Part shown: in pieces, positions 8,546 to 38,799 of the stretch
Position numbering within the stretch: the first letter of the stretch is position 1
Layout: each line of letters starts with the position of its first letter
Origin: Clostridia bacterium
Lineage (GTDB): Bacteria; Bacillota; Clostridia; Lachnospirales; Anaerotignaceae
NCBI GenBank assembly: GCA_022651385.1
Contig: JALCQR010000008.1
Coordinates: 1-64,000, forward strand
Direction: 5' to 3'
Length of the DNA: 64,000 nucleotides
Notes under the pieces: model-generated
Database searches by the model: none
The model's input: the letters and a program-made list of their open reading frames with translations, nothing else
Told to the model about the DNA's origin: nothing
Made by a program: the position numbers and the translations under genes

Positions 8546-8706
8546 TTACTTTACATTATTTTTCATATGCAGATATTTTTCCCTTGTTGCCATGCCGCCT
8601 CTTATATGCCGTTCGGCTTTGTTAATTTCGAGCACACGCCGCACTTCTTTGGCAAGCTGTGGATTTATGTGCAAAACCCTGTCTGTTATATCTTTGTGTA
8701 CAGTTG
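8546..8706 (-). CDS. spoIIID: spoIIID, 3' part of split gene (residues 35-87 after joining)
   Basis: Read leftward from the core repeat the frame gives TVHKDITDRVLHINPQLA, then KEVRRVLEINKAERHIRGGM and ATREKYLHMKNNVK. This matches the second half of SpoIIID, including the hallmark INP-LA-EV and RH-RGG-AT-KY positions and the basic C-terminal helix used for DNA binding. It has no start codon of its own: upstream the frame enters the element and meets TGA and TAA stops within about 25 bases. It is therefore silent unless joined to the 5' half at 14738-14875. Length, motifs and an intact stop codon argue against a decayed pseudogene. Confidence 0.93.
8697..8706. repeat. Attachment core, left junction
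   Basis: TGTACAGTTG, identical to 14763-14772 and in the same orientation. The coding sense of the core is CAACTGTACA, inside the spoIIID codons for STVH. The element lies to the right. Strand exchange by the serine recombinase should occur within this repeat, probably at its TG/CA end, which is the centre of the reconstructed attP. Confidence 0.85.
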
Positions 8707-8810: not shown

Positions 8811-8945
8811 ATGACTATAAAGTTTATTAACCCAAATTCGCCTGACGTTTCTGAAAAGATATTAAAAACACAAATTATTATAAATTTGGAAATGCTTATT
8901 AAAGAAAAGTCAGCTACGCTTGATAATCTAAATCGCACGGCATAA
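8811..8945 (+). CDS. Small 44-residue protein, candidate recombination directionality factor
   Basis: The ORF begins MTIKFINPNSPDVSEKILK and ends LDNLNRTA. GAGGTGATACAAGC precedes the ATG, a good binding site with AGGTG spaced eight bases away. It stops 12 bases before the recombinase start, so the two form an operon. I do not recognise a named family. Small proteins beside large serine integrases often set excision versus integration, and the C. difficile skin element requires such a factor, so this is the best candidate in the element. That role is inferred from position and size only. Confidence 0.65.
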   Translation: MTIKFINPNSPDVSEKILKTQIIINLEMLIKEKSATLDNLNRTA

Positions 8946-8957
8946 GGGGGCCAAACT

Positions 8958-10514
8958 TTGGACCAATGTGAAAAAATCAAAGTAGCCGCATACTGCCGTG
9001 TTTCAACAGACAAAGATGACCAGATTGCAAGCCTTGAAAACCAAAAAACTTTTTTTGAGGAATACGCACGCATTCATAACTATGACCTTGTTAAGCTGTA
9101 TACCGATGAAGGCATAAGCGGAACAAAATTAAAAAAGCGAAAAGCCTTTAACCGAATGCTGGCTGACGCAAGACTTGGCAAATTTGAAATGGTATTTGTA
9201 AAGGATATTTCACGTTTTGCCAGAAATGCCGTTGATTTTCTTACAAGTATACGTGAGCTTAACTCTCTTGGCATAAAATGTTATTTTGTAAACTCAAATC
9301 TATCAACAAATGACGGTGAATTTGCTCTCGGAATACTTGCTCTTGTTGCACAGGAAGAAAGTGCAAACATGTCTAAAAGAGTTAAATTTGGAAAATCAAA
9401 AAACGCAGCACTTGGAAAAGTACCTAATATTGTATATGGATATGACAAAACACCCGGAGAGCTTTTTAATCTTAAAATAAATGAATATGAAGCATCAATA
9501 ATACGTCGTATATATAACATGTATATAAATACGGGCATAGGTACAAACAAAGCAGCGCAAATTTTAAACAGCGAAGGAATAAAAACCAAGCGAGGCTGTC
9601 ACTGGACATCAAATGCCGTATCACGTATACTTTCAAATCCCATATATACAGGAACAATAATAAACGGCAAAGAAGAAGTAAAAGATTTCCTTACAGGAGT
9701 CAGAACCAAAAATCCCAAAGAAAAATGGCACATAACCGAAAACAGCAGCCTTGCAATAATCTCAAAAGAAACATTTAAGAAATCCCAAAATCTTCTTAAA
9801 CAAAGAAAAACATCATTTAAGATTGAAAAAAAACGCGAAAGCTGCAAATACCCGCTTTCAACTCTTATTAAATGCGCATCATGCGGATATAGCTTCAGGC
9901 GCATATATCGCCGGTATAAATACGGAGAATATATAAAATGGTCTTGCTGCGGGAGGAATACATATGGAAAAGATTTTTGTAATAACACAACAAATGTAGA
10001 TGAAAAAGAACTTATTGAATCCATATGCGGCTATTTATGCGGTATAGTTTCAGATAAAGACAGTTTTATTAAAGACATATGTGACGAGCTTGAAAAGAAA
10101 ATCAAGTCCTCTTATCCTTCAGACACAAGCTCCATTAAAAAAAGGCTTTCGGAGTTAAAAAGAGCAAAGTCACGTCAGACAAAAATGTATGAGGCCGAAA
10201 TAATTACTCTTGACGAGCTTAAGGAACGCACATCGGAATTAAATATGGAAATTAAGAAATATAATGCTTTACTTAAAAACACTGACAACGAAGTTGAATC
10301 AAAAAAGCAGGAAAAGCTTATAAAAAGTTACTGTAAAAATATCGAGACTCTTTTGCCTGAAATACTGGACAACCATATGCTTAAACGAATAATAGAAAAA
10401 ATACTTGTAAATGATAACGGTGAGGTTGAAATATATTTAAGGCTCTATTCACCGTCTGAACTCAAAAGCCAAAAAGGTTCCTTAAATACAATCTTAAAAA
10501 ACACACTGTTTTAA
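8958..10514 (+). CDS. Large serine recombinase (site-specific, skin/SpoIVCA class)
   Basis: The 518-residue protein has the N-terminal resolvase domain (about 8-150) with catalytic Ser16 in YCRVSTD, the DISRFARN active-site segment and an RVKFGK linker. A recombinase domain follows (NKAAQILNSEGIKTKRG, WTSNAVSRILSNPIYTG). A zinc ribbon comes next (CASCGYSF, WSCCGRN and a CNN cysteine), then a charged coiled-coil near 380-450. Start is TTG at 8958 with AAGGGGG eight bases upstream. It lies beside the left att core and is ended by a terminator at 10498. It is the obvious enzyme for moving the 6-kb segment. The domains appear complete and undamaged, so the enzyme should be active. Confidence 0.95.
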   Translation: MDQCEKIKVAAYCRVSTDKDDQIASLENQKTFFEEYARIHNYDLVKLYTDEGISGTKLKKRKAFNRMLADARLGKFEMVFVKDISRFARNAVDFLTSIRELNSLGIKCYFVNSNLSTNDGEFALGILALVAQEESANMSKRVKFGKSKNAALGKVPNIVYGYDKTPGELFNLKINEYEASIIRRIYNMYINTGIGTNKAAQILNSEGIKTKRGCHWTSNAVSRILSNPIYTGTIINGKEEVKDFLTGVRTKNPKEKWHITENSSLAIISKETFKKSQNLLKQRKTSFKIEKKRESCKYPLSTLIKCASCGYSFRRIYRRYKYGEYIKWSCCGRNTYGKDFCNNTTNVDEKELIESICGYLCGIVSDKDSFIKDICDELEKKIKSSYPSDTSSIKKRLSELKRAKSRQTKMYEAEIITLDELKERTSELNMEIKKYNALLKNTDNEVESKKQEKLIKSYCKNIETLLPEILDNHMLKRIIEKILVNDNGEVEIYLRLYSPSELKSQKGSLNTILKNTLF

Positions 10515-10542
10515 AAACCGTCGCTAAACAGTGTGTTTTTTT
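10498..10542 (+). terminator. Terminator overlapping the recombinase stop codon
   Basis: AAAACACACTGTTT pairs with AAACAGTGTGTTTT across a 14-base loop and is followed by T residues. The left arm includes the last codons of the recombinase. Confidence 0.9.
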
Positions 10543-10572
10543 AGTTTTTAAATAATTAAATTTAAGTATATG

Positions 10573-10719: not shown

Positions 10720-12105
10720 ATGTCTATTTTAGCAGCATATGCCGTTCCTCATCCTCCAATTATAATGCCGGAAGTTGGACACGGCGAAGAAAAAAAAATT
10801 CAAAAAACAATTGACGCATACCGTTTCGCAATGCGCAGCGCCGCACAGTTTAGGCCGGACACTGTCGTTGTTACAAGTCCCCATTCTGTAATGTACGCAG
10901 ATTATTTTCATATTTCACCCGGAACACATGCCGAGGGAAGTTTCAGTCAGTTTGGAGCACCGAAAGTCAAAATTGAGGCAACATATGATACCGAGTTTGT
11001 TTCAGTGCTTTCAAATCTCTGTGGCCAAAACAACATTCCGGCAGGAACAATGGGAGAACGAAACCGTCATCTTGACCACGGAACAATGATACCTATTCGG
11101 TTTCTTCAGGAAAATTATTCAGACTTTAAGCTTGTGCGCATAGGTCTGTCGGGCCTTAATCCTATTATGCACTACCGTCTGGGGCAGTATATTTCCAAGA
11201 CTGCCGACGAGCTTAACCGGAAGGTGGTTGTAATTGCAAGCGGAGACCTTTCTCATAAGCTGAAACCTGAAGGCCCTTATGGATTTGCTCCCGAAGGCCC
11301 CGTATTTGACAGTAAAGTTACCGATATACTCGGACGAGGCGATTTTTTAAGCCTGCTTGAAATGGATTCGGATTTATGTGAGTCGGCTGCGGAATGCGGC
11401 TTAAGGTCTTTCTGGATAATGGCCGGAACTCTTGACAAAAAAAGCGTTGAAAGCTCTCTTATTTCATATGAAGGACCGTTTGGAGTCGGATATTCGGTAT
11501 CATCTTTTATTGTTACCGGAACAGATGAAACCCGTGATTTTTCAAAACAGTATATAAAAGATGAGAAAACCCAGCTTGAAGAAAAGAAAAATGCCGAGGA
11601 TTCATTTGTACGTCTTGCAAGGTACAGCCTTGAAACCTATGTAAGGGAAGGCATGTATGCGGAAATCCCAGAAAATCTTCCAAATGAGCTTACATCCGTA
11701 CGTGCCGGAGCATTTGTGTCGCTTAAAAAAGACGGAAGGCTCAGAGGATGCATAGGCACTATTTTGCCTGTACATTCAAACCTTGCCGAAGAGATACTTC
11801 ACAATGCTGTGTCGGCAGCCGTTCATGACCCGCGTTTTGCACCCATAACACCTGATGAGCTTGATAAGCTTGTATACAGCGTTGATGTGCTTAGCACACC
11901 CGAACCTATTGAATCCTCAAAACAGCTTGATGTAAAGCGTTACGGCGTAATTGTGGAAAACGGCAACCGACGCGGACTTCTTCTTCCAGATCTTGCCGGA
12001 GTTGATACACCTAAAAAGCAAATAGAAATTGCATGTCAGAAAGCCGGTATATCACCAGAAGAAGACATAAAAATGTGGCGTTTTGAGGTGGTGAGACACA
12101 AATGA
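10720..12105 (+). CDS. AmmeMemoRadiSam system protein B/A fusion (MEMO-like plus AMMECR1)
   Basis: Residues 1-270 form a MEMO/LigB-like domain ([50 protein letters not shown]), with histidines that in related LigB dioxygenases bind metal. Residues 285-461 form an AMMECR1 domain containing the invariant LRGCIGT motif. Separate B and A proteins are common, and fused forms like this also occur. The biochemical role of the system is not established. The gene overlaps the radical SAM gene by four bases, so the two are translated together. GGAGGG precedes the ATG. It is inside the spoIIID element, an unusual location. Confidence 0.93.
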
Positions 12106-12923
12106 AAACCGTATGCCGTCTTTGCCCGCATGAATGTGAGCTTGAGAGCGGACAAACCGGTTTTTGCAACGCAAGAACAAATGTGGACGGCAGTATAAAA
12201 TGTACAAATTACGGTCGCCTTACATCAATTGCTCTTGACCCTATTGAGAAAAAGCCGCTTTTACATTTTTATCCCGGCAAAAACATACTTTCTGTTGGTA
12301 GCTACGGATGTAATCTTCGCTGTCCGTTCTGTCAGAACTATTCAATTTCAATGGCAAAAGCCGAGACAGCCTATGTGTCACCAGAAAAGTTAATTGATAC
12401 AGCTGAGAGTCTTATAGACACGCACAACAATATAGGTATAGCTTTTACTTATAATGAACCGCTTATAAGCTATGAGTATGTTCTCGACTGCTGTACGCTT
12501 GCGCATGATAAAGGGCTTAAAACAGTACTTGTGACAAACGGTATGATATTAGAAAAACCTCTGTTAAACCTATTGCCATATGTTGACGCAATGAATATAG
12601 ACTTAAAAGGTTTTTCGCAAAGCTTTTACAGCTGGATTGACGGTGATTTTGAAACTGTAAAGAATACTATAGCTGCTTCAGTTAAACATTGCCATGTGGA
12701 AATTACAACGCTGATTATACCCGGTAAAAATGATTCCGAATGTGATATGAACTCTGAAGCACAGTGGATAGCATCGCTTAATACTGAAATACCTTTGCAT
12801 ATAACGCGTTTTTTTCCAAGATATAAACTGAGAAATACAGCTGCAACCCCGGTTGAAAAAATATACAGTCTCTGTGACACAGCAAAAAGATATCTTAAGC
12901 ACGTTTATCCCGGAAACTGCTGA
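12102..12923 (+). CDS. AmmeMemoRadiSam system radical SAM enzyme
   Basis: This 273-residue radical SAM protein has the cluster motif C-x3-C-x2-C in [14 protein letters not shown] at about residues 70-78. An N-terminal cysteine region ([18 protein letters not shown]) resembles that of pyruvate formate-lyase activating enzymes. [14 protein letters not shown] and MNIDLKGF are also typical. It is the usual partner of the MEMO and AMMECR1 proteins. The substrate is unknown; glycyl-radical activation and small-molecule or protein modification have been considered for the family. It is the last gene of its operon, ended at 12965. Confidence 0.93.
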
Positions 12924-12964
12924 TTTTTTATGTTTAACAAATATCTATTTAAAATTGATATATC

Positions 12965-12993
12965 AAGGCTGTCGATAAAATCGACAGCCTTTT
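12965..12993 (+). terminator. Intrinsic terminator after the radical SAM gene
   Basis: AAGGCTGTCGAT pairs perfectly with ATCGACAGCCTT around a three-base loop and is followed by TT and an A/T run. Confidence 0.93.
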
Positions 12994-13361
12994 ATCAAAA
13001 TCAAGATTTTGACAAGTACTGTATGTTAAAATTATGAGTTCCAGCGGCACAAATGCAATAAACTAAGCAAATTATATTTTTTAATTGAATTTTTAATAAT
13101 ATCTCACCTTCATGTTTAATAAATATTTACCTATAATTATATATATTTTTAAATATTGATTGTAAAAAAAATTTCTCATGATATATTGTATATAGTAATT
13201 TTTTGTCAATTTAGGCTGTAAAAATCAAAAAAAGCTGATTTGGTATAATTTTTATACAAAAAACGCTTGATTTTATTGTACATAGTGATAATATAGTCGT
13301 TGAGCGTAAAATTTATAAAAGTATATAATTACAATTATACATAGAAAAGAGACAATGCAAA
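12994..13361. other. AT-rich leader of the glycosyltransferase gene
   Basis: This 368-base gene-free stretch inside the element has strings of T and A and no ORF. It includes the promoter at 13267 and near-repeats TGTACATAG and TGTATATAG. Nothing else is recognisable. Confidence 0.5.
13267..13294 (+). promoter_or_regulatory. Sigma-A-type promoter for the glycosyltransferase gene
   Basis: TTGATT and TAATAT separated by 16 bases, 67 bases before the start codon. Confidence 0.5.
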
Positions 13362-14672
13362 ATGCTACATGTACTTACTAACTTAAATATTATTGTAATC
13401 ATTATAATGACCGCGGCATATTTTTATCAGTTAATTTACACAGTAATAGGATTGGTATATAAAAATAAAGTGCCAATGCACGAGGATGCCGAGCCGCATA
13501 GATTTGCAGCTCTTATTTGTGCGCGCAATGAATCGGCGGTCATAAGTGAGATTATAAAAAGTTTAAAAAAGCAAAGGTATCCTTCGGAATTTCTTGATAT
13601 ATATGTGCTTGCCGATAACTGTACCGATAATACGGCCAAAAAAGCTGAGCGTGCCGGCGCGTTTGTTTATAAGCGCTGGAATAAGCAGCAGGTCGGCAAA
13701 GGTTATGCCCTCGACTATTTATTTAAAAAAATAGATATGAACAGAGGCATAAAATATTATGACGGATATTTTATATTTGATGCAGACAATATAGTTGATG
13801 AAAACTTTGTAGCAGAAATGAACAAAACTTATTCCAAAGGTTATAATGTGGTTACAAGCTACCGAAACTCAAAGAACTTTGCTTATAATTGGATTACATA
13901 TGGATATTCTCTTTGGTTTTTGCATGAGGCTCGGTTTATTAATTATCCGCGTATGGTTTTGGGAAACGGATGTGCAGTATCAGGAACCGGCTTTTTGGTA
14001 TCCTCAAAAATCATAGAAGAAAACAAGGGATGGCCTTTTCATCTTATGACAGAAGATATACAGTTTTCAGTAAACTGCGCCATAACAGGATGTAAAATCG
14101 GCTACTGTGACAAAGCAATGGTATACGATGAACAGCCGACCACTTTTACTCAGTCATGGACACAGCGTATGCGTTGGGCAAAAGGTTTTTATCAGGTAGA
14201 TACAAAATATATGGCGCCGCTTTCAAAGTGTGCTCTTACAGCCAAAGGCAGAAAAATGACATGTTATGATATTCTTATGACTGTAGCTCCTATAATGCTG
14301 TTTTCAATTTTCTTTGCCGTGTTTAATATAGCTGTAGCCGCCACATTTGTAACAGCACCTCCGTTAATAGCCAAAATTGTAATTGACAGGACAATGTCAT
14401 TTGTTTTCCTTACATTTTTATCCGCATACATAGGATTGCTTATAGTGGGATTTTTGACAGTTGTCTCCGAATGGGACCGAATACATGCAACATCGGTACA
14501 AAAGCTTATATATCTTCCGATATTCCCGCTTTTTATTGCTACATATATCCCTATAGCTCTTGCGGCACTTGTTATGAAAGTTGACTGGAAACCGATACGT
14601 CATTTTTCATGTTCAGAGATACAAAGTCCAATAAATACTGAAAACCAAAATTATTCTTTCAGCAATAAATAA
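13362..14672 (+). CDS. Membrane glycosyltransferase family 2 (processive/cellulose-synthase-like)
   Basis: The 436-residue protein has an N-terminal membrane span (about 5-27), a cytoplasmic GT-A domain and three or four C-terminal spans. The GT-A domain holds YVLADNCTDNT, the UDP-sugar DxD-type motif FDADN, GTGF, the acid-base TED and the QRMRW motif seen in processive enzymes such as cellulose, chitin and hyaluronan synthases. It could polymerise or export a polysaccharide at the membrane, perhaps part of the spore or cell envelope; substrate is unknown. A moderate AAAGAGA precedes the ATG. It lies inside the spoIIID element, next to the right junction and convergent with the spoIIID 5' half. 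Confidence 0.9.
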   Translation: MLHVLTNLNIIVIIIMTAAYFYQLIYTVIGLVYKNKVPMHEDAEPHRFAALICARNESAVISEIIKSLKKQRYPSEFLDIYVLADNCTDNTAKKAERAGAFVYKRWNKQQVGKGYALDYLFKKIDMNRGIKYYDGYFIFDADNIVDENFVAEMNKTYSKGYNVVTSYRNSKNFAYNWITYGYSLWFLHEARFINYPRMVLGNGCAVSGTGFLVSSKIIEENKGWPFHLMTEDIQFSVNCAITGCKIGYCDKAMVYDEQPTTFTQSWTQRMRWAKGFYQVDTKYMAPLSKCALTAKGRKMTCYDILMTVAPIMLFSIFFAVFNIAVAATFVTAPPLIAKIVIDRTMSFVFLTFLSAYIGLLIVGFLTVVSEWDRIHATSVQKLIYLPIFPLFIATYIPIALAALVMKVDWKPIRHFSCSEIQSPINTENQNYSFSNK

Positions 14673-14737
14673 ACAAATTAACCGTACTCTCAAACATATT
14701 GAAAGCACGGTAATTTTTATCTTTTTATTAAAGTTCT

Positions 14738-14875
14738 TTAGTTCTTTTTTGTTACAACCGTATGTACAGTTGACTTGCTTATACCAAATTTTTTAGCAGT
14801 CTCTCTTACAGTTGAATTTGAGCTTACAATAAATTTTGCTACTTCAACTGCTCTTTCCTCTATATAATTTTTCAA
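14738..14875 (-). CDS. spoIIID: spoIIID, 5' part of split gene (residues 1-38)
   Basis: From TTG at 14875 the frame reads (M)KNYIEERAVEVAKFIVSS, then NSTVRETAKKFGISKSTVH. This is the first half of SpoIIID, the mother-cell DNA-binding regulator, ending exactly at the end of the helix-turn-helix. Past the core the frame enters the element and stops after TVVTKKN. Joining VH to KDITDRV at 8546-8706 gives an 87-residue protein; B. subtilis SpoIIID is 93. The TTG is chosen from the usual SpoIIID N-terminus and the sigma-E-like promoter at 14910. GTG at 14884 and TTG at 14932 are alternatives. The unspliced product has the HTH but lacks the basic C-terminal helix and is probably inactive. Confidence 0.93.
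   Translation of the reverse strand: MKNYIEERAVEVAKFIVSSNSTVRETAKKFGISKSTVHTVVTKKN
14763..14772. repeat. Attachment core, right junction
   Basis: TGTACAGTTG, direct copy of 8697-8706. The flank to the right is the spoIIID 5' half; the flank to the left is element sequence beginning, in spoIIID sense, TACGGTTGTAAC. Confidence 0.85.
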
Positions 14876-14909
14876 AATTACCACGACCGATGTTTTTTTG
14901 TTCAACTTA

Positions 14910-14938
14910 TATATATGCACGTTTTCTTCCAAACATAA
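14910..14938 (-). promoter_or_regulatory. Sigma-E-like promoter of spoIIID
   Basis: On the minus strand TTATGTT and CATATATA are spaced by 14 bases. Five of seven and six of eight positions fit the sigma-E consensus. A start about 15-20 bases downstream would give a leader of roughly 27 bases to the TTG at 14875. SpoIIID is transcribed by sigma-E in B. subtilis. Confidence 0.5.
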
Positions 14939-15039: not shown

Positions 15040-15633
15040 TCAATTTAAAGCACTTGTATCGTCCTTGGTTTTAGAGTCATCTTTTACAGCTTTACCCAGT
15101 TCAAAATATGTAACACTCATATTTACAGAAACATTTCCGCTGTTTATGTTTTCGTTTTTGGAAGTCATTGAAAGCGACGTTATTATATTTCTGTATCTGC
15201 TTGACCTTATACTTTCAACAATATCTTCTGCAGTTTTATATCCTCCGCAGGTAAAACTGAGCTGCATTTCACGCCGAACAATATTATCCTGCTGCGAAAG
15301 CGGCATAAAGGATACAGTATAATTCTCAGCTTTAATAAGTATGCCGTTTAACTCAGACATAAGTTTTTGTGAGTTATCATAATCGGGCACCAAGCTCATT
15401 TGCCTGCCTTCCTGTTTGTCTCCTGAAAGCTCCATCTGCATATTTTTAAGGCTTTGATTTTTAGTCTGCTCGAAAGTCAGCCCGTTTTGGGCATTGCTCA
15501 TATTCTGAGGTGCATCGGCAATTGTGCTGTTTACATCAAGATAGACAAATTTAAAATACAATACCGCAATTATCAAAATCGTCATAATTATTAAAAGCAG
15601 TTTTTCCCTGAATGTAAAAGGACGCGACATCAT
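15040..15633 (-). CDS. pilO: PilO-like type IV pilus assembly protein
   Basis: The 197-residue protein has a short cytoplasmic N-terminus, one membrane span (about 12-30, LLLIIMTILIIAVLYFKF) and an extracytoplasmic part with a ferredoxin-like fold pattern (NYTVSFMPLSQQ, MQLSFTCGGYKTAEDIVESI). This is the layout of PilO, which with PilN links PilM to the pilus machine. Sequence identity to known PilO is low, so the call rests on topology and gene order. It overlaps the PilN-like gene by four bases. It is the last pilus gene before spoIIID. Confidence 0.7.
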   Translation of the reverse strand: MMSRPFTFREKLLLIIMTILIIAVLYFKFVYLDVNSTIADAPQNMSNAQNGLTFEQTKNQSLKNMQMELSGDKQEGRQMSLVPDYDNSQKLMSELNGILIKAENYTVSFMPLSQQDNIVRREMQLSFTCGGYKTAEDIVESIRSSRYRNIITSLSMTSKNENINSGNVSVNMSVTYFELGKAVKDDSKTKDDTSALN

Positions 15634-16220
15634 TGTTTATCACCCCCGCTGTACTTTGACTTAAGGGTAACGGTAATCGTAGCCGTGACATTTTGTCCCT
15701 GAGAAAGTTTCTGACCATTGTTTGTTGTAGCCGTAGAAACGGTAACCGTATCCACTATAGGACTTTTATATAAATCCGATACTATCAAAGACACATCCTT
15801 AAGTGTAAGGTTATCAATAACTGTATTTAATACGTTTGACTCAAACACAAAACTTTTTATCTGTGCCTTTGGCATTATTTCTCTGTCTATAGTGGTAAAC
15901 AAATCATCAATATCTACAAGTGCAAGCTCGTCATCATTATAAAACGAATATGTGTAATGTTCATAATTATCCTTAACATTATCATATTGTTCATTTTCTT
16001 TATGAAGCATTTCAGCCTGCTGGTTTAAATAATTAATCTCCGAATAAACATCGTTTGCAGCGTTAAGCCTGTCAATTACTGCAAACTTACAAAAAGCAGC
16101 AATAAGTACAGCAGTTATTATTGCTGCAGGCAATAATACTTTAGGGTCATTCCCCTTATTTTTTTCTTTTACAGCAAGATTAAGCGTTCTCTTTAAAGAA
16201 GTATTTTTAATTTTTTTCAT
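15630..16220 (-). CDS. pilN: PilN-like type IV pilus assembly protein
   Basis: The 196-residue bitopic protein has a cytoplasmic basic N-terminus, one span near 28-48 and a coiled-coil stretch (INYLNQQAEMLHKENEQYD), followed by a small alpha/beta domain. PilN binds PilM through its N-terminus and pairs with PilO. Identification depends mainly on order between pilM and pilO. Confidence 0.72.
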   Translation of the reverse strand: MKKIKNTSLKRTLNLAVKEKNKGNDPKVLLPAAIITAVLIAAFCKFAVIDRLNAANDVYSEINYLNQQAEMLHKENEQYDNVKDNYEHYTYSFYNDDELALVDIDDLFTTIDREIMPKAQIKSFVFESNVLNTVIDNLTLKDVSLIVSDLYKSPIVDTVTVSTATTNNGQKLSQGQNVTATITVTLKSKYSGGDKQ

Positions 16221-16231
16221 TACTCACGCCC

Positions 16232-17248
16232 CTACTGTATAGCCGCACCTACAGCACATACAAAAATCTCTCCGTTTGTGTCAAAATTTCCGGCATATGA
16301 AAGAATATCATTTGCGCTTTTAAGCTCAAGCGCAGTGCTTTCGGCTAAGGCCTTAATAAGCGGCTCTATCATGCCTCCGCCGCCGCAAATAAAAGCACTT
16401 GACAAATTGCTTTCCTGATTATTAAAACGATAAAAATTAATTGCCCTCATAACCTCAACGGCAATTGAATTATAAATATTCATACACCCTTCGCTTTCAA
16501 GTATTCCTCCGCTTTGGGCTTCTTTATATCTTTTTGCAATATGCACATCAACATTTTTTTCTTCCGCAATTGCCAAGTCAATCATATTTAAACCATAATC
16601 AAGTGTCCTCGAAGCTGAAAGCTTATGCCCGTCAAAAATATGTATTCGGCATTTTGTATGTCCCAAATCTATAAAACAATATTCATCTTTTTTTTCGCCG
16701 GTTTCGCTTTGTTCAAAATTCTTCTTTTTTCCTTCCAACAGATATATCAAATTAGTATATGCCATAACCGAAGGTATGGCAATAGACATTTTAAGCCCGG
16801 CACGTTTAAACATTCCCCTGTAATTATCTATTGTGGATTTTAGTGCCGCTGCCGCCAAAAGATCTATTTCTTTATGCCCTTCATTACTTTCGTTCAAATC
16901 AAGCATGGCATAGTCATAAACGTATTTATCTTTGTCATCATTTATAAAATCATGAAATTCGTAGGGAATGTTTACCCTCAGCTGTTCGGAATTCATAAAA
17001 GGCATATTTATCCTTCTTGTAAAAACCAAAGTATCCGGAAGTATTACAGAACATTTTTTCTCCGAAATATGATTCTTTTTAAGCGTTTCTTTAATAAACT
17101 GGCTCATTGCCTCCAAAGACAATACCTGCCCTTCGCTTACCATATTATCAGGCATGGATTCTGAAAACAAATGTATTTTGTTTTTGGAATATTCAGCAAT
17201 TTTAAGGCTGCTTGAGCCTATATCAATACCAATACATCCATTTGCCAC
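16232..17248 (-). CDS. pilM: PilM, actin-like ATPase of the type IV pilus
   Basis: The protein begins VANGCIGIDIGSSSLKIAEY, the phosphate-1 motif of the actin/FtsA/PilM fold. It has CFIDLGHTKCRIHIFDG as phosphate-2 and FICGGGGMIEPL as the adenosine motif. PilM forms the cytoplasmic ring that connects the motor to PilN. GTG at 17248 is chosen because AAAGGAGG lies eight bases upstream. The slightly longer frame has no site. Confidence 0.88.
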   Translation of the reverse strand: MANGCIGIDIGSSSLKIAEYSKNKIHLFSESMPDNMVSEGQVLSLEAMSQFIKETLKKNHISEKKCSVILPDTLVFTRRINMPFMNSEQLRVNIPYEFHDFINDDKDKYVYDYAMLDLNESNEGHKEIDLLAAAALKSTIDNYRGMFKRAGLKMSIAIPSVMAYTNLIYLLEGKKKNFEQSETGEKKDEYCFIDLGHTKCRIHIFDGHKLSASRTLDYGLNMIDLAIAEEKNVDVHIAKRYKEAQSGGILESEGCMNIYNSIAVEVMRAINFYRFNNQESNLSSAFICGGGGMIEPLIKALAESTALELKSANDILSYAGNFDTNGEIFVCAVGAAIQ

Positions 17249-17262
17249 TAAAAAATCCTCCT

Positions 17263-18099
17263 TTAATAAAACAAGCCCAGGTACCAAGAAATTATATATT
17301 TTCCGGCAAGCATTGTAACCAATGTTGCAAAAGCTATAGATGGTCCAAAAGGCACAGGCTTTGAAAATTTGCCGCTTTTTTCATAATTTTCTGTATTTCC
17401 CATAGCTTTTTTATGTATGGAATTGCCGAAAACAAATGTAAAAAATATTCCTACTATGCAGGCTATTATTAAATTAAGCAGATTCTGCATAGGACCAAGA
17501 TACAAGCCCGTTACAAAAAACAGTTTTATATCTCCGCCTCCAAGGGTTTCCTGTCCTTTAATTTTATCAAAAATAATGCTGAGTGTAAACAGTCCGAAAG
17601 CTACAGACAATCCGCCTATTATTCCATACCCGGCATTTTTCAAAGGGTCTGGCATTAACGGCAATGTCGCAATCCAAATTATAATGCCGGATATAATAAG
17701 TTTGTCAGGTATTATAAAGCTTTCCAAATCTATTAAAGCTATAGCCATAAGAAGGCAAGTAAATATAAGCGCCCGCAAAAGTTCCTCGCTTATGTTAAAC
17801 CTTAGTACAAGCAGCATAAAAGCAACAGCGAGTATTATTTCAGACAAAAAACTTGCAGGGCTTATTTTTTCTTTGCAGTAGCGGCATTTTCCTCTAAGCA
17901 CGATGTATCCTATTATAGGTATAAGGTCTATAATCCCAAGTACATGGCCGCATTTATCACACTTGCTTCTGCCTTTAAGCACGCTTTCATTATTTATATA
18001 TCTATAGGCAAAACAGCATATAAAGCTGCCTAAAGCGCTGCCTAAAACAGCGGCTTTAATAAGAAAATAAGCCGTAAAAAACGGCGAAATGTAAAGCAT
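17263..18099 (-). CDS. pilD: Prepilin peptidase / N-methyltransferase
   Basis: This multi-span aspartyl protease has the N-terminal two-CxxC zinc site (CDKCGHVLG, CRYCKEKI) and catalytic aspartates in IALIDLESFIIPD and LGGGDIKLFF. It cuts prepilin leaders after glycine and usually methylates the new N-terminus. The ATG at 18099 follows GTGGAGG and starts immediately after the pilin gene stop. Its substrates here should include the main pilin, the second pilin and the giant and minor pilins on the other strand. Confidence 0.93.
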   Translation of the reverse strand: MLYISPFFTAYFLIKAAVLGSALGSFICCFAYRYINNESVLKGRSKCDKCGHVLGIIDLIPIIGYIVLRGKCRYCKEKISPASFLSEIILAVAFMLLVLRFNISEELLRALIFTCLLMAIALIDLESFIIPDKLIISGIIIWIATLPLMPDPLKNAGYGIIGGLSVAFGLFTLSIIFDKIKGQETLGGGDIKLFFVTGLYLGPMQNLLNLIIACIVGIFFTFVFGNSIHKKAMGNTENYEKSGKFSKPVPFGPSIAFATLVTMLAGKYIISWYLGLFY

Positions 18100-18100
18100 A

Positions 18101-18520
18101 TCAATGATCCTCCACCCAGTCGTATTTAATATTTTTGCCGTCATAAGTTATTCTTATAACCATGGTGCCCGGAGCACCGGTATACATTACCTTATCAACA
18201 ATCATAACTGAATATTTATTGTACCCCTTTGGTATATCGGCTACAATTTGGTTTGACTTGTCGTCATAATAGCCGACATATGTTAAATTATCATTTCCGA
18301 ATATACTTCCAGTCTCATTTATGTTAACTTCGGCTAAATTTTTTGCAGTTATCAAATTAAGCTTATCCGTGCCAACAGCCGCCTTTTTTTGGTATTCAGA
18401 CACGGCAAAAATTATTATTCCTATAACAATACATATAATGACCGAAACGGAAAACACTTCTATTACTGAAAATCCTGATTCCGATAAAATTTTACTGTGT
18501 TTTTTCAATGCAATCTCCAA
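18101..18520 (-). CDS. Type IV pilin-like protein (minor prepilin)
   Basis: The 139-residue protein has a short leader ending at the cleavage site SG|FSVIEVFSVSVI, with glutamate at +5 and a hydrophobic helix after it. A globular domain of about 85 residues follows. It sits between pilA and pilD and stops one base before pilD. It is probably a minor pilin. Confidence 0.8.
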   Translation of the reverse strand: MEIALKKHSKILSESGFSVIEVFSVSVIICIVIGIIIFAVSEYQKKAAVGTDKLNLITAKNLAEVNINETGSIFGNDNLTYVGYYDDKSNQIVADIPKGYNKYSVMIVDKVMYTGAPGTMVIRITYDGKNIKYDWVEDH

Positions 18521-18749
18521 TAATTATACATCATATTAATTAAAAACGAAACAAACTAAATTTACATAATCCCTTATATACATTGAGCAGAGATATAAAA
18601 TCTCTGCCCATTTTTATTAAATAAAATTTATTTTCAGGAGACCTCAACCCATTGGCCAACCTGTAAAAAAATGCACTTAAAAAGTACCTAATACATAAAT
18701 AGATTTCTTAATAAATTTAAAACTGGAATATGTTAAATTATGAAATATC
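18521..18749. other. Spacer after pilA with hairpin
   Basis: GCAGAGAT (18587-18594) pairs with ATCTCTGC (18600-18607). T residues follow only on the plus strand, so on the leftward transcript it may be an RNA-stabilising or partial-termination hairpin between pilA and the lower-expressed genes. Confidence 0.45.
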
Positions 18750-19247
18750 TTAAGGCTTTACCCATTTTTCAGAAATTACACCTTCATCAGTAGTTTTTCC
18801 GTGGAAATTTTGAGTAGTACCATCACTAATGAAAACCTCAATAATTTTGCCATCTGCATCACCAGTATATTTATCAACGTTTTCAGCTCCATAAGTTATA
18901 CTTGGGCTTGTCGATGTTCCCTTGCCATAAGCTGTAAGCTTCTTAGCAGTATCAGCATCAACAAGTTCACCTTTTGCAGCATCATAATAAAATGTTCCTG
19001 TTGTTTTAATAGTAGTAGTACCAGTATCACTATCAGTATCAGTACCACTATCAAGGTACTTTGCAACAGCTACTGCCTTTGCAGCACGCATATTTGCAAC
19101 ATCCGTTGCCTCTCTTGCCTTTTCAAGCTTTGATGTAAATACAGGAATTGATATAGCAACAAGAACTGCTATTATTGCAACAACTATAAGAAGCTCAGCC
19201 AATGTAAAACCTTTTTTGTTGTTTTTTCTGTCGAACAATTTTTTCAT
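18750..19247 (-). CDS. pilA: Major type IV pilin
   Basis: The 165-residue protein has a basic leader then KG|FTLAELLIVVAIIAVLV, the canonical prepilin cleavage site with glutamate at +5 and a long hydrophobic N-terminal helix. The head domain is rich in threonine, aspartate and glycine (TDTDSDTGTTT) and lacks a cysteine pair. A good AGGTGAG site precedes the ATG. It lies between pilC and the second pilin and is the best candidate for the major pilus subunit. Confidence 0.93.
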   Translation of the reverse strand: MKKLFDRKNNKKGFTLAELLIVVAIIAVLVAISIPVFTSKLEKAREATDVANMRAAKAVAVAKYLDSGTDTDSDTGTTTIKTTGTFYYDAAKGELVDADTAKKLTAYGKGTSTSPSITYGAENVDKYTGDADGKIIEVFISDGTTQNFHGKTTDEGVISEKWVKP

Positions 19248-19313
19248 ATTAACTCACCTCATATCTCATTTTTATGTATATAAACCGGCGGGTTGATTCC
19301 GGCAAATCACTGT

Positions 19314-20522
19314 TTACATTGCCGAATACATCGAAAACATCGGCAGGTAAAGCGATATTACTATAAATCCGGCAATAAGGGCTGTTGCTATAAGCAAAGC
19401 CGGCTCAAGCATACTAATTGCCCTTGTAGCCGAAGTTTCAACTTCATTATCAAAATAAAGCGCTGTTTTTGAAAGTGTTTCCTCAAGAGCGCCTGTTTCC
19501 TCGCCTACGGAAGTCATTTCACTTAAAAGGTCCGGGAAACATCCTTCCTGTGTCATACAGGCGCCAAGGCGTTTTCCCATTTCTATACCGCCTACCATTT
19601 TGTTTGTGCAAAGCCCCAAGTAATAGTTATCCAAAACCCTTGACGTAACATCAATTGCACGGCTTACGCTTATTCCGGCTGAAAGCAGTGTCGACATAGT
19701 GTTGGCAAACTGGCTTGCACCGTTCATAAGCACTATTTTTCCTATTATAGGCATTTTTAAAGAAAGTTTTGAAAGCTTTTCTCGGCCCTTTTCAGTACGT
19801 TCATATGATTTATAAGCAATAATTGCGGCCGCAATCACAAAAACCATAAGAAGCCACCATTTTTGGAAAAACTTTGACGACGCTATAAGCATTTTGGTAC
19901 TGATAGGAATTTTGGTATCAAGCTGGTCAAAAATAGAAAGAAGTGTCGGAATAACTTTTACCATCATTATCATCATTACTACTGCCGCAACAATAAGTAC
20001 AAAAATAGGATATGTAAGAGCATTTCCAACCTTGGCCTTTATTTTATAGCTCTTCTCAAAGTATACGGCCAGCTTGTCAAACGATTTGTCAAGCGCTCCC
20101 GATTCTTCTCCCGCACGTATTGTCTCAATCATTGTGGCAGGAAGTTTTGGTCCTTTGCTTTCAAAACTTGAAGCAAGAGAATGTCCCGCAGACACATCCT
20201 GTGATACTTGTTCAAGTATTTTTTTTAGTTTTTTATCCTTTGTTTGGTCAGTTATCATTTTAACCGTTCTTGTAATGCTAAGCCCTGAACGAATTAACAC
20301 AGAAAACTGAGAACACATTATGCTTAAAGATTTCTGTTTAACTTTTCCGGAGCCAATTTCCATTGTCAGTATCCCGCTTTTTTCCTTTACCTGTGAGATA
20401 TTGGTTACATAAGCGCAGTTTTCCTTAACCTTTACAACAGCGTCATATTCGTCATAGGCCTCAATTACACCTGAAACTTTGGCTCCGTCTTTTGACACCG
20501 CCTTATACTGATAGGTACTCAT
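19314..20522 (-). CDS. pilC: PilC/GspF inner-membrane platform protein
   Basis: The 402-residue protein begins MSTYQYKAVSKDGAKVSG and has the two T2SSF domains, each with CSQFSVLIRSGLSITR- or QFANTMSTLLSAGISV-like helices, and three membrane spans (near 170, 225 and 375). The motifs IRAGEESGALD and SVGEETGALEE are the repeated family signature. PilC is the membrane platform rotated by the PilB/PilT motors. Confidence 0.95.
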   Translation of the reverse strand: MSTYQYKAVSKDGAKVSGVIEAYDEYDAVVKVKENCAYVTNISQVKEKSGILTMEIGSGKVKQKSLSIMCSQFSVLIRSGLSITRTVKMITDQTKDKKLKKILEQVSQDVSAGHSLASSFESKGPKLPATMIETIRAGEESGALDKSFDKLAVYFEKSYKIKAKVGNALTYPIFVLIVAAVVMMIMMVKVIPTLLSIFDQLDTKIPISTKMLIASSKFFQKWWLLMVFVIAAAIIAYKSYERTEKGREKLSKLSLKMPIIGKIVLMNGASQFANTMSTLLSAGISVSRAIDVTSRVLDNYYLGLCTNKMVGGIEMGKRLGACMTQEGCFPDLLSEMTSVGEETGALEETLSKTALYFDNEVETSATRAISMLEPALLIATALIAGFIVISLYLPMFSMYSAM

Positions 20523-20544
20523 TTATATCACCTCATCAGACGAG

Positions 20545-21600
20545 CTACATACCTGTATTTCGTTTTACATATTCTTTGTCTCTTGCAGCAAGCTGTGCCG
20601 TATCTTTTGATATTTTGCGTTCTCTGTAAAGCTTTATAATGCTGTTATCCAGAGTTATGCTTCCCACAGAGGCCGATGTAGCCAATACGTTGGCAATCTG
20701 AGGTGTTTTTCCCTCTCTTATAAGATTTCGTACTGCCGCGGTTACAATCATTATCTCGCAAGCCGCTATACGTCCGCCGCCTGTTTTTTTAGGCAGAAGT
20801 TTCTGTGAAAGCACAGCCTGCAGTGTAGTTGATACCTGCATTCTTATCTGCCTTTGCTCTCCTTCCGGAAAAACCTCCACCATACGGTCAATAGCTTCCG
20901 CTGCCGTACCTGTATGCAGTGTGGTAAAGACAAGGTGTCCTGTCTCTGCCGCCGTGAGTGCTGTTCTTATTGTGTCAAGGTCTCTCATTTCTCCTATAAG
21001 AATTACATCCGGGTCCTCTCTCAATATAGCTCTTAGTCCGTCGGAATATGTTTTAGTGTCCCGTCCTATTTCTCTTTGGTTTATAACACATAAATCCGGC
21101 TTATAAACATATTCTATAGGGTCCTCAAGTGTGATAATATGTGCGTGTTTTGTATGGTTTATTGTGTCAAGCAAGGCCGCAAGTGTAGTTGATTTTCCTG
21201 AACCGGTAACTCCCGTTACAAGCACTATTCCGCTTTGTAATGCCGGAAGTGTGCCTACAGCTTTAGGCAAAGCAAGTTCATCAAGACTCGGTATATGACT
21301 ATGAAGAATACGTATTGCAGCTGAAACACTGCCCTGCTGGCGGAATACGTTTATACGGCACCTAACATTTCCATAAGTTTTTGCTCCGTCCCATTCTCCA
21401 ATATTTTCTATATCACTGTAATCTTTTCCAACAATTTCCTTTGCATAATTTTCACAGTCCGCAGACGTGAGTCTTTCTTCACACATATCCGTTATTTCCC
21501 CGTCGATACGGCATCTCGGAGGCAAACCGTATACCAAATGAATATCGGAAGCGCCGTTTTTTTCGGCTGCCCGTATAATATCCTGCAAAGCAAAAGGCAT
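20545..21600 (-). CDS. pilT: PilT retraction ATPase
   Basis: The 351-residue hexameric ATPase shows Walker A GVTGSGKSTT, the Asp box LEDPIEYV, Walker B VILIGEMRDLDT and the His box TAAETGHLVFTTLHT. The family's AIRNL motif is degenerate here (AVRNLIREGK). PilT depolymerises the pilus and drives twitching. It lies between pilB and pilC, with 19-22-base gaps, in one operon. Confidence 0.95.
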   Translation of the reverse strand: MPFALQDIIRAAEKNGASDIHLVYGLPPRCRIDGEITDMCEERLTSADCENYAKEIVGKDYSDIENIGEWDGAKTYGNVRCRINVFRQQGSVSAAIRILHSHIPSLDELALPKAVGTLPALQSGIVLVTGVTGSGKSTTLAALLDTINHTKHAHIITLEDPIEYVYKPDLCVINQREIGRDTKTYSDGLRAILREDPDVILIGEMRDLDTIRTALTAAETGHLVFTTLHTGTAAEAIDRMVEVFPEGEQRQIRMQVSTTLQAVLSQKLLPKKTGGGRIAACEIMIVTAAVRNLIREGKTPQIANVLATSASVGSITLDNSIIKLYRERKISKDTAQLAARDKEYVKRNTGM

Positions 21601-21619
21601 ATGTCATTCCTCCAAAAAT

Positions 21620-23311
21620 TCAATCATCTGTATTCATACATTTTTTAGCTTCTTCAACAGTTGTTGTGCCTTCAAGCACCAACCTGCGGCAGTTTTCAGA
21701 AAGAGACACAAAATCTTCACTGTCCGCAACTACATCCAAAACAGATTCTCTGTCAAGATGATTTAAAACGGCCTGACGTATTTTTCTGTTGAATGTTATT
21801 ATTTCAAACACTCCTATACGTCCTTTGTATCCTGTATTAAAGCACTGCGGACATCCCTTTGCTCTGTAAAACTTAATGCCGTCTTTTTTCTCAATTCCCA
21901 TAAACCCCAGTTCATCATCATCAGGAGTATATTCTTCACGGCAGTAAGGACATACCTTCCTTACAAGTCTTTGGGAAATTATGCCTCTTAACGCCGCCGA
22001 TACAAGGTATGGCTCCACACCCATATTTTCAAGTCTGTCTATTGTCGAAGCAGCGTCGTTTGTATGTATAGTTGAAAGTACAAGATGCCCCGTAAGCGCC
22101 GCTCTCATTGCTATCTGTGCCGTTTCACCGTCACGGATTTCACCAACAGCTATTATATCCGGGTCCTGACGAAGTATTGACCGTAATCCTCCGGCAAATG
22201 TCATTCCGGCTTTTTCATTTATCTGTACCTGATTTATGCCGTCAATATTATACTCAACAGGATCTTCAAGCGTTACAAGGTTTACCGTTTCTTTGTTAAG
22301 TTCGTCTATAATAGTATACATTGTCGAGGATTTTCCTGAGCCTGTAGGCCCCACCATAAGCACAACACCTGAAGGAAAAGATATAAGTTTTACATATTTT
22401 TTAAGGTCATGCCCTGAAAGTCCGATTTTTTCCTTAGTAAGTATCTGAGAAGACTTATCCAAGAGACGAATTACGACTTTTTCGCCGTATATTGTAGGAA
22501 GTGTGGACATACGAAGGTCAATGTCCCTATTTTTTATTAATACGTTGCTTCTGCCGTCAAGAGGCACTCTGTGTTCGGATATATCCATGCCGCCCATAAC
22601 CTTAAGGCGTGTTATCACAGCGTCCTGCAAATTATGAGGTATTTCCATAATATGGTGCAAAAGTCCGTCTATTCTCATTCTTACATTAAGGCTGTCTTTA
22701 TGCGGCTCAATATGTATGTCCGACGCATTTACAGTAATTGCTCTTTCTATTATTGAGTTTACAAGACATATTGTAGGAGCTGATTTTGCGCCGTTTTCGT
22801 CAAGTGAATTTACAGTTAATCCGGAAGATTCATCCAAAACGTTTATTTCACGTTTCATTTCCTCAATGGCCCGGACAGCACCCTCATTGCCGTAAAGATC
22901 CATTATTGCACGATCTATGGCGTCACTGTAGCCAATCATAGGCACTACATGTTTTCTTGTAGCCGTTTTGACCTCTTCCAAAGCCATAAAGTTCATAGGA
23001 TCAGCCATCGCTAAGAAAAGTGTGCCTTTTTCTAATTTTACGGGAACGACACTGTATTTTTTTGCTATATTTTTAGGTACCACCTGTGAAAGTTCAGGCG
23101 GTATTTGTTTATTTGACAAATCTATAAATTCAATTCCCAGCTGCATTTGAAGTGCTTTTATTAACTGATTTTGAGTTATATATCCGGATGTTATAAGCTG
23201 GTCGCCAAGACGTTTTTTTGTTATTTTCTGCTGTTCCAAAGCTTCCTGAAGCTGTTTTTCAGTTATAAGACCAACCGACATAAGAAGGTCGCCAAGACGT
23301 TTATATCGCAT
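21620..23311 (-). CDS. pilB: PilB extension ATPase
   Basis: The 563-residue protein has N-terminal MshEN-type domains (GDLLMSVGLITEKQLQEAL and a repeat QLITSGYITQNQLIKAL). The ATPase core has Walker A GPTGSGKSSTMYT, LEDPVEYN, Walker B IIAVGEIRD and TGHLVLSTIHTNDA. A zinc tetracysteine (CPYC, CPQC) lies near 450-490. MshEN domains can bind cyclic-di-GMP in some homologues. It is the first gene of the leftward pil operon. Confidence 0.95.
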   Translation of the reverse strand: MRYKRLGDLLMSVGLITEKQLQEALEQQKITKKRLGDQLITSGYITQNQLIKALQMQLGIEFIDLSNKQIPPELSQVVPKNIAKKYSVVPVKLEKGTLFLAMADPMNFMALEEVKTATRKHVVPMIGYSDAIDRAIMDLYGNEGAVRAIEEMKREINVLDESSGLTVNSLDENGAKSAPTICLVNSIIERAITVNASDIHIEPHKDSLNVRMRIDGLLHHIMEIPHNLQDAVITRLKVMGGMDISEHRVPLDGRSNVLIKNRDIDLRMSTLPTIYGEKVVIRLLDKSSQILTKEKIGLSGHDLKKYVKLISFPSGVVLMVGPTGSGKSSTMYTIIDELNKETVNLVTLEDPVEYNIDGINQVQINEKAGMTFAGGLRSILRQDPDIIAVGEIRDGETAQIAMRAALTGHLVLSTIHTNDAASTIDRLENMGVEPYLVSAALRGIISQRLVRKVCPYCREEYTPDDDELGFMGIEKKDGIKFYRAKGCPQCFNTGYKGRIGVFEIITFNRKIRQAVLNHLDRESVLDVVADSEDFVSLSENCRRLVLEGTTTVEEAKKCMNTDD

Positions 23312-34478: not shown

Positions 34479-34504
34479 TGTTACACCTCCTCATGTAAAA
34501 TTAA

Positions 34505-34632
34505 AAAAGCTTCTCTGCCAATAGACAGAGAAGCTGATAAAATCAATCACTAATCCTCGGCAGGCAATCTTACGATTTTACGCTTTCGCGCCTACTGTCT
34601 ACGGCAGTATCAAACACTTATATTAAGTTAAC
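34505..34632 (-). ncRNA. L10 (rplJ) ribosomal protein leader with attenuator
   Basis: The transcript between rplA and rplJ contains GACAGTAGGCG, AAAGCG and AAGATTGCCTGCCGAGGA, features of the L10 leader where L10-L12 bind. It ends in the stem AGCTTCTCTGTC/GGCAGAGAAGCT followed by TTTT, an attenuator-type terminator just before the rplJ start. Confidence 0.85.
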
Positions 34633-38577: not shown

Positions 38578-38595
38578 TCCTCCTTAAAAAATAAC

Positions 38596-38681
38596 GCAAA
38601 GAACGGACAACCAAGGAGGCAGGTTACTTACAGAAAATTTCTGCGTCCGGACTACCGACCGAACTGTGTTTTTATCTTTGC
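38596..38681 (-). promoter_or_regulatory. yjdF riboswitch
   Basis: In mRNA sense the element is closed by a stem GCAAAG/CTTTGC and contains GGTAGTCCGGACGCAGAAA, TCTG and GTAAGTAACCTGCCTCC, followed by AAGGAGGA before the yjdF start. The composition and gene context match the yjdF motif, an azaaromatic-sensing RNA. Control is likely at translation initiation because no terminator separates it from the gene. Confidence 0.85.
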
Positions 38682-38799
38682 TTTAAAAAATTACTACATT
38701 TATATTATATACCAAAACAGATATGTTCTCAAATTAAAAATATAAAAAAGTGCCGCGTTTTATTCCCACAGCACTTTTAAATAAGAAATTAAGTTTTTA

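Follow-up and report, generated by a model that had tools for sequence, protein, structure and literature searches.

AmmeMemoRadiSam and glycosyltransferase genes as probable acquired cargo of a non-phage intervening element that splits spoIIID in a Clostridia bacterium

The AmmeMemoRadiSam genes and the glycosyltransferase gene found side by side in the stretch of 64,000 nucleotides analysed here (the window) are best explained, with a probability of about 0.78, as the acquired cargo of a non-phage element inserted into spoIIID, within the codons for the recognition helix (S-T-V-H-K-D); this element would be lost from the mother cell while its cargo would serve the vegetative cells. The main interest resides in the family of spoIIID elements to which it belongs, a variant of the intervening elements of the gin and skin type. 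Known elements splitting sporulation genes are few, mostly phage-like, and located in late genes, whereas spoIIID encodes an early sporulation regulator. The element and its borders comprise the following features, numbered according to the window:

8546-8706, minus strand: 3' (C) half of spoIIID (HMM positions 35-81, 4.3e-25; from its translation)
8697-8706, minus strand: attachment core CAACTGTACA at the C-half junction (exact 10-bp repeat; the two cores lie 6,066 bp apart)
8811-8945, plus strand: 44-aa ORF beginning with MTIKFINPNS, putative recombination directionality factor (RDF) from its position and motif
8958-10514, plus strand: large serine recombinase with a TTG start (Pfam Resolvase, Recombinase and Zn-ribbon; relatives occur at split spoIIID genes)
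10502-10547, plus strand: hairpin terminator of the recombinase unit (fold z -4.05)
10720-12105, plus strand: AmmeMemoRadiSam B/A fusion (LigB/Memo and AMMECR1; Pfam LigB 1.2e-45, AMMECR1 3.4e-48)
12102-12923, plus strand: AmmeMemoRadiSam radical SAM enzyme, amrS (TIGR04337; CxxxCxxC at C70/C74/C77)
12966-12991, plus strand: hairpin terminator of the B/A-amrS unit (AAGGCTGTCGAT-aaa-ATCGACAGCCTT; fold z -4.47)
13362-14672, plus strand: processive-type GT2 glycosyltransferase, EpsU/PgaC-like (NCBIfam, tree)
14681-14711, no strand assigned: hairpin that separates the GT2 gene from the spoIIID N-half junction, its GT2 side being T-rich (fold z -3.83)
14763-14772, minus strand: attachment core CAACTGTACA at the N-half junction (exact 10-bp repeat)
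14763-14932, minus strand: 5' (N) half of spoIIID (Pfam SpoIIID 3.1e-16; HMM positions 1-43)

The 6,066-bp element interrupts spoIIID at junctions 8697-8706 and 14763-14772, in such a way that the N-half stops within the helix-turn-helix, at GISKSTVH, and the translation of the C-half starts with KDITDRV and ends with RHIRGGMATREKYLHMKNNVK before the stop codon. Both halves retain their frame and conserved residues, and their in-frame joining at the core yields an ORF of 108 aa, with a score comparable to those of intact SpoIIIDs. The joined ends of the element form an imperfect palindrome centred on CA, with 17 of 25 arm positions matching, as compared to a background of 6.7 +/- 2.3 matching positions in the window, where 0.03% of positions are as good. 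The five genes of the element consist of the 44-aa ORF, the large serine recombinase, the B/A fusion, amrS and the GT2 gene. With its halves that can be joined in frame, its site-specific recombinase and its short flanking repeats, it corresponds to a sporulation intervening element of the skin/gin type rather than to a prophage: matches to PHROGs were confined to the integrase and to generic radical SAM and glycosyltransferase proteins, structural, packaging and replication genes being absent, and the cargo is thus as free of phage functions as the preliminary description had claimed. A scan of viral contigs for the attP junction returned nothing, and neither an excised circle nor a reconstituted spoIIID was seen. 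Both the recombinase and the cargo are oriented against spoIIID, unlike the recombinase of the other complete elements, which indicates that the interior of the element has been rearranged. The host genome carries spoIVA, so the host is probably a spore-former.

It is unlikely that spoIIID has decayed to a pseudogene no longer in use, the insertion being a dead scar. A spoIIID mutant of C. difficile indeed has a milder defect than mutants of sigE or sigK (PMC5025042); however, the preserved frame and conserved residues of both halves, the score of the joined protein, the intact recombinase, RDF candidate and attP, and the wide retention of the same arrangement in other genomes all argue against such a decay.

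Other features were recognised elsewhere in the window. Directly upstream of spoIIID, a type IV pilus-like operon (15040-23311, minus strand) encodes PilM/N/O-like proteins, a prepilin peptidase, a pilin, PilC, PilT and PilB, as judged from inspected translations. An azaaromatic (yjdF) riboswitch (38587-38685, minus strand) and an L10 leader (34494-34622, minus strand) both exceed the Rfam gathering score.

The identity of the cargo genes, i.e., a B/A fusion, its radical SAM partner and a processive-type GT2, agrees with the preliminary description. All three curated AmmeMemoRadiSam cut-offs are passed, by protein A (AMMECR1; TIGR04335, 143.8 bits versus a cut-off of 99), by the radical SAM partner (TIGR04337, 266.8 versus 220) and, marginally, by protein B (Memo/LigB; TIGR04336, 27 versus 26). 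All three cargo genes are full-length open frames with catalytic-type residues that are invariant among homologues, e.g., C70/C74/C77 of amrS across 27 sequences. The best NCBIfam match of the GT2 is EpsU (1.9e-35), followed by PgaC/IcaA, and its scores stay under the equivalog cut-offs (122.6 versus 700 for EpsU, 63.8 versus 422.3 for PgaC), which designates it as an EpsU/PgaC-like member of the GT2 superfamily whose subfamily is left open. To our knowledge, the AmmeMemoRadiSam system has no established function, and a literature search on its function yielded no informative paper. In other genomes of the order, the B/A fusion adjoins the radical SAM gene as it does here, whereas in the window the pair is carried by a developmental element that is mobile, and not by a regular locus of the chromosome. 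A role of the cargo as a defence system was discarded, PADLOC having detected no defence system and just a weak generic radical SAM (pVip) similarity.

Three transcription units, each closed by a strong hairpin, make up the element, the B/A and amrS genes overlapping by 4 bp in a single unit. The idea that every cargo gene possesses its own promoter or terminator is correct when transcription units are counted instead of single genes. Sigma-70 promoter-like matches occur at chance level (29 versus 24.2 +/- 5.1 expected). These separately terminated units, together with the G+C content of the B/A gene (0.442, above the window mean of 0.381 +/- 0.029) and the modular cargo of related elements, including one of 2.5 kb (L149) that has a recombinase and no other recognisable gene, would fit a stepwise assembly, starting from a recombinase element that subsequently received the B/A-amrS and GT2 units as independent acquisitions. 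This sequence of events is conceivable, with the odds leaning against it: neither inner repeats nor a second recombinase border the cargo, and the genes would remain cargo under any definition.

Taking into account their distribution and phylogeny, the three cargo genes look horizontally acquired, jointly or singly. The full memo/AMMECR1 fusion occurs in 2 of 58 genomes of the family, namely the window's own genome and another one with 34% identity, and amrS, detected at E<=1e-60 in 93 of 392 genomes of the order, is present in no other member of the family. In the GT2 tree, the window GT2 groups with the GT2s of another family (f6), with supports of 99/96 for the pair formed with G097 and 100/99 for a clade of five rows, apart from the GT2s of its own family. 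Phylogeny, which had been proposed as a check for transfer, thus speaks clearly for the GT2, while the B/A fusion and amrS are closest to f6 by distance, with weak supports for any donor in the tree. The searches made for phage or plasmid copies of the cargo found none. The GT2 tree, the lack of synteny and the scarcity of the B/A fusion and amrS in the family together point to acquired passengers.

The lack of synteny deserves attention with respect to the GT2, which could have been an ancestral downstream neighbour of spoIIID, captured as the C-half moved away. Within the same family, two genomes that belong to one genus (G030 and G008) harbour a 50%-identical GT2, tail-to-tail with an intact spoIIID at a distance of 4.5-7.3 kb, and some large split loci hold apparently chromosomal genes (30 kb with leuCDB in G002; 120 kb in G101). 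An ancestral neighbour is nevertheless very unlikely and was rejected, because the window GT2 belongs strongly with family f6 and not with that genus, the genes between and around the GT2 and spoIIID are wholly different with nothing else syntenic, and the B/A fusion and amrS are absent from the genomes of that genus. As no relative was found to display the recombinase-B/A-amrS-GT2 order beside an intact spoIIID, and the genes lie between the two spoIIID halves, their description as cargo of a sporulation-gene element is upheld.

The element of the window has many relatives. An alignment of nine recombinases was scanned against the genomes of 84,980 species, and a spoIIID half was present at 64 of the best 80 recombinase loci; the C-half follows the recombinase at a distance of at most 3 kb in 56 of these 80, and of at most 250 bp in 51, and in a few further loci it overlaps the recombinase end. 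The relatives, which occur in many gut clostridia, split spoIIID at the same helix-turn-helix codons and conserve the palindromic attP, since in the inspected junctions the joined ends show the same palindrome, with the central CA within the GTA-CAT codons (Val-His) of spoIIID. Where a single locus contains the whole element and the two spoIIID halves, the element measures from 2.5 kb to 9.4 kb. In the recombinase tree, the window groups with Anaerobacterium, Ruminiclostridium, Marasmitruncus, Pelosinus and a Selenomonadales MAG (SH-aLRT 98), and the recombinases from its own family are scattered over the tree, which indicates horizontal movement. Half-length SpoIIID matches alone occur in 49 of the 274 genomes of the order with a SpoIIID match above cut-off (about 1 in 6), a few single halves possibly being contig ends; 34 of these 49 have both halves at separate places, a number from which an adjacent pair in G264 was kept out as a frameshift. 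It is reasonably probable, on these grounds, that the elements constitute a widespread and previously unreported family of excision switches, always inserted at one position within the part of spoIIID that encodes the DNA-binding helix, distributed in Clostridia and some Negativicutes, gating the passage from sigma-E to SpoIIID and carrying exchangeable metabolic or anti-phage cargo. No report of a spoIIID-splitting element was found in the literature searched, preprints and most subscription papers lying outside the search, so that a prior description is possible.

Several loci deserve separate mention. The single phage-collection match to the recombinase, MT838016.1 (L235), deposited as "Bacteriophage sp.", was considered as an excised circle and rejected, being a piece of chromosome that contains a recombinase next to the C-half of spoIIID; it also holds polyphosphate-kinase-2-like cargo. 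Between the two halves in G002 (L049/L050, C2:155589-186009) lie leuCDB and further genes that look chromosomal, and the N-half is adjoined by the remnant of a recombinase with an internal deletion. The halves of G101 (C1:2412923-2533156) are found at a distance of 120 kb on the only contig of this 3.8-Mb genome. Recombinases of a sister clade (L154, L156, L157 and L161; 37-43% identical) occur outside spoIIID, and directly 3' of these recombinases, at about 11.4-12.0 kb, a conserved fragment resembling EVLDPMVLSSKV...RRLFVTLGQFSIIRLERDAQ...VPVLDYSIP is possibly another split spore gene.

The comparison of the cargo across related elements, as advocated in the preliminary description, revealed that it differs between otherwise homologous elements. 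Depending on the element, the calls come from inspected translations or from Pfam/PADLOC:

G022: zinc ABC transporter with ZnuA/ZinT (a zinc ABC transporter also in L093)
G014: Crp, nitrilase and ferredoxin-like proteins
L108, L117 and L121: RloAB/AbiL-type defence genes (L084, from Anaerobacterium chartisolvens, has the AAA part)
L127: Schlafen/NERD helicase set
L119 and L122: AAA-ATPase/PDDEXK nuclease and a chemoreceptor
L150: lysyl-PG synthase-like protein and a beta-lactamase-fold protein
L101: DAP-dehydrogenase-like enzyme
L088, from Ruminiclostridium sufflavum DSM 19573: SDR and amidase

A repeat array of CRISPR-like look, with a translation that repeats VSVPYEITLLSN, also adjoins the spoIIID-element recombinase of G022 (L064, 92-1202).

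Since it changes from one element to another, the cargo appears interchangeable. No AmmeMemoRadiSam genes were detected by tblastn in other spoIIID elements at the best 80 recombinase loci, and in the nine genomes of the order that possess both amrS and a split spoIIID, amrS is always on a different contig from the spoIIID halves. AmmeMemoRadiSam is therefore an interchangeable passenger, carried by the window's element alone among those examined, and its linkage to spoIIID, initially regarded as an informative clue to its function, turns out to be a weak one. In this respect, a functional coupling, by which the cargo would have been selected for sporulation timing, being required by the forespore or by vegetative cells but damaging to the mother cell past the sigma-E stage, seems extremely improbable: what speaks for it is that the cargo sits in an element whose loss from the mother cell is predicted, yet the cargo is not conserved among elements, about a quarter of the genomes of the order contain amrS with no spoIIID link seen, and those nine genomes keep the two apart. 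Nothing links the cargo mechanistically to sporulation.

Small ORFs with a [FYIVL]xNPN/DPN motif occur upstream of the recombinase at 33 loci, the window and 32 others, and this conserved small NPN ORF is the putative directionality factor of the element. The 44-aa candidate of the window, a short protein, has no family match in Pfam or PHROGs. Upstream of the ORF set, sigma-E-like promoters of the typical form TACTATT-N14-CATAGAAT reach a mean best score of 10.48, against 9.28 +/- 0.13 for shuffles and 9.48 for the reverse strand, while the site present in the window itself scores at chance level (10, p 0.87). In the proposed order of events, sigma-E would induce the NPN protein and, in the steps that we infer from there on, the NPN protein would direct the recombinase to excise the element and restore spoIIID. 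SpoIIID itself cannot be the trigger of the excision here, because the element splits its gene.

Experimentally characterized systems offer close parallels. The gin element, located in gerE of Bacillus cereus ATCC10987, is also a non-phage element that splits the gene of a small mother-cell transcription factor, with a short shared core, a large serine recombinase (GirC) and a directionality factor (GirX), putative in the window; it differs by its late target gene, its other host class, its three recombinases and the absence of any reported AmmeMemoRadiSam or GT2 cargo, and its sporulation-specific excision was shown experimentally (PMC5595907), whereas that of the window element is predicted. 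Similarly, skin, located in sigK of Clostridioides difficile, has a small RDF encoded apart from its large serine recombinase, and the window has a candidate for such an RDF; the skin RDF is controlled by sigma-E and SpoIIID, so that excision takes place in the mother cell alone, and skin is phage-like (PMC5025042). A dependence on SpoIIID is impossible for an element splitting spoIIID. The elements yin (yabG), vfbin (spoVFB) and SPbeta (spsM), listed in PMC10747680, are prophage-like and interrupt late genes, unlike the window element, and the sporulation genes they split are restored by excision, as predicted here. The loss of the element from the mother cell can be inferred with good reason from its architecture and from the biology of the homologous skin and gin elements.

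The forespore would keep the integrated copy, so that the cargo would be inherited via the spore and lost from the doomed mother cell only. In vegetative cells, where the cargo would be active, AmmeMemoRadiSam may act as a radical-SAM-dependent module for metal- or oxygenase-like modification and the GT2 may participate in surface polysaccharide synthesis, the cargo probably paying for the element as an accessory benefit to the host. For AmmeMemoRadiSam, the linkage adds no more than the mobility of its genes and, provided that excision takes place, the fact that the mother cell can do without them. If the proposed reading is true, DNA excision would commonly control how the mother cell develops in gut clostridia, in about one sixth of the SpoIIID-bearing genomes sampled, and the family of spoIIID elements would represent a niche for carrying genes at no cost to the spore line.
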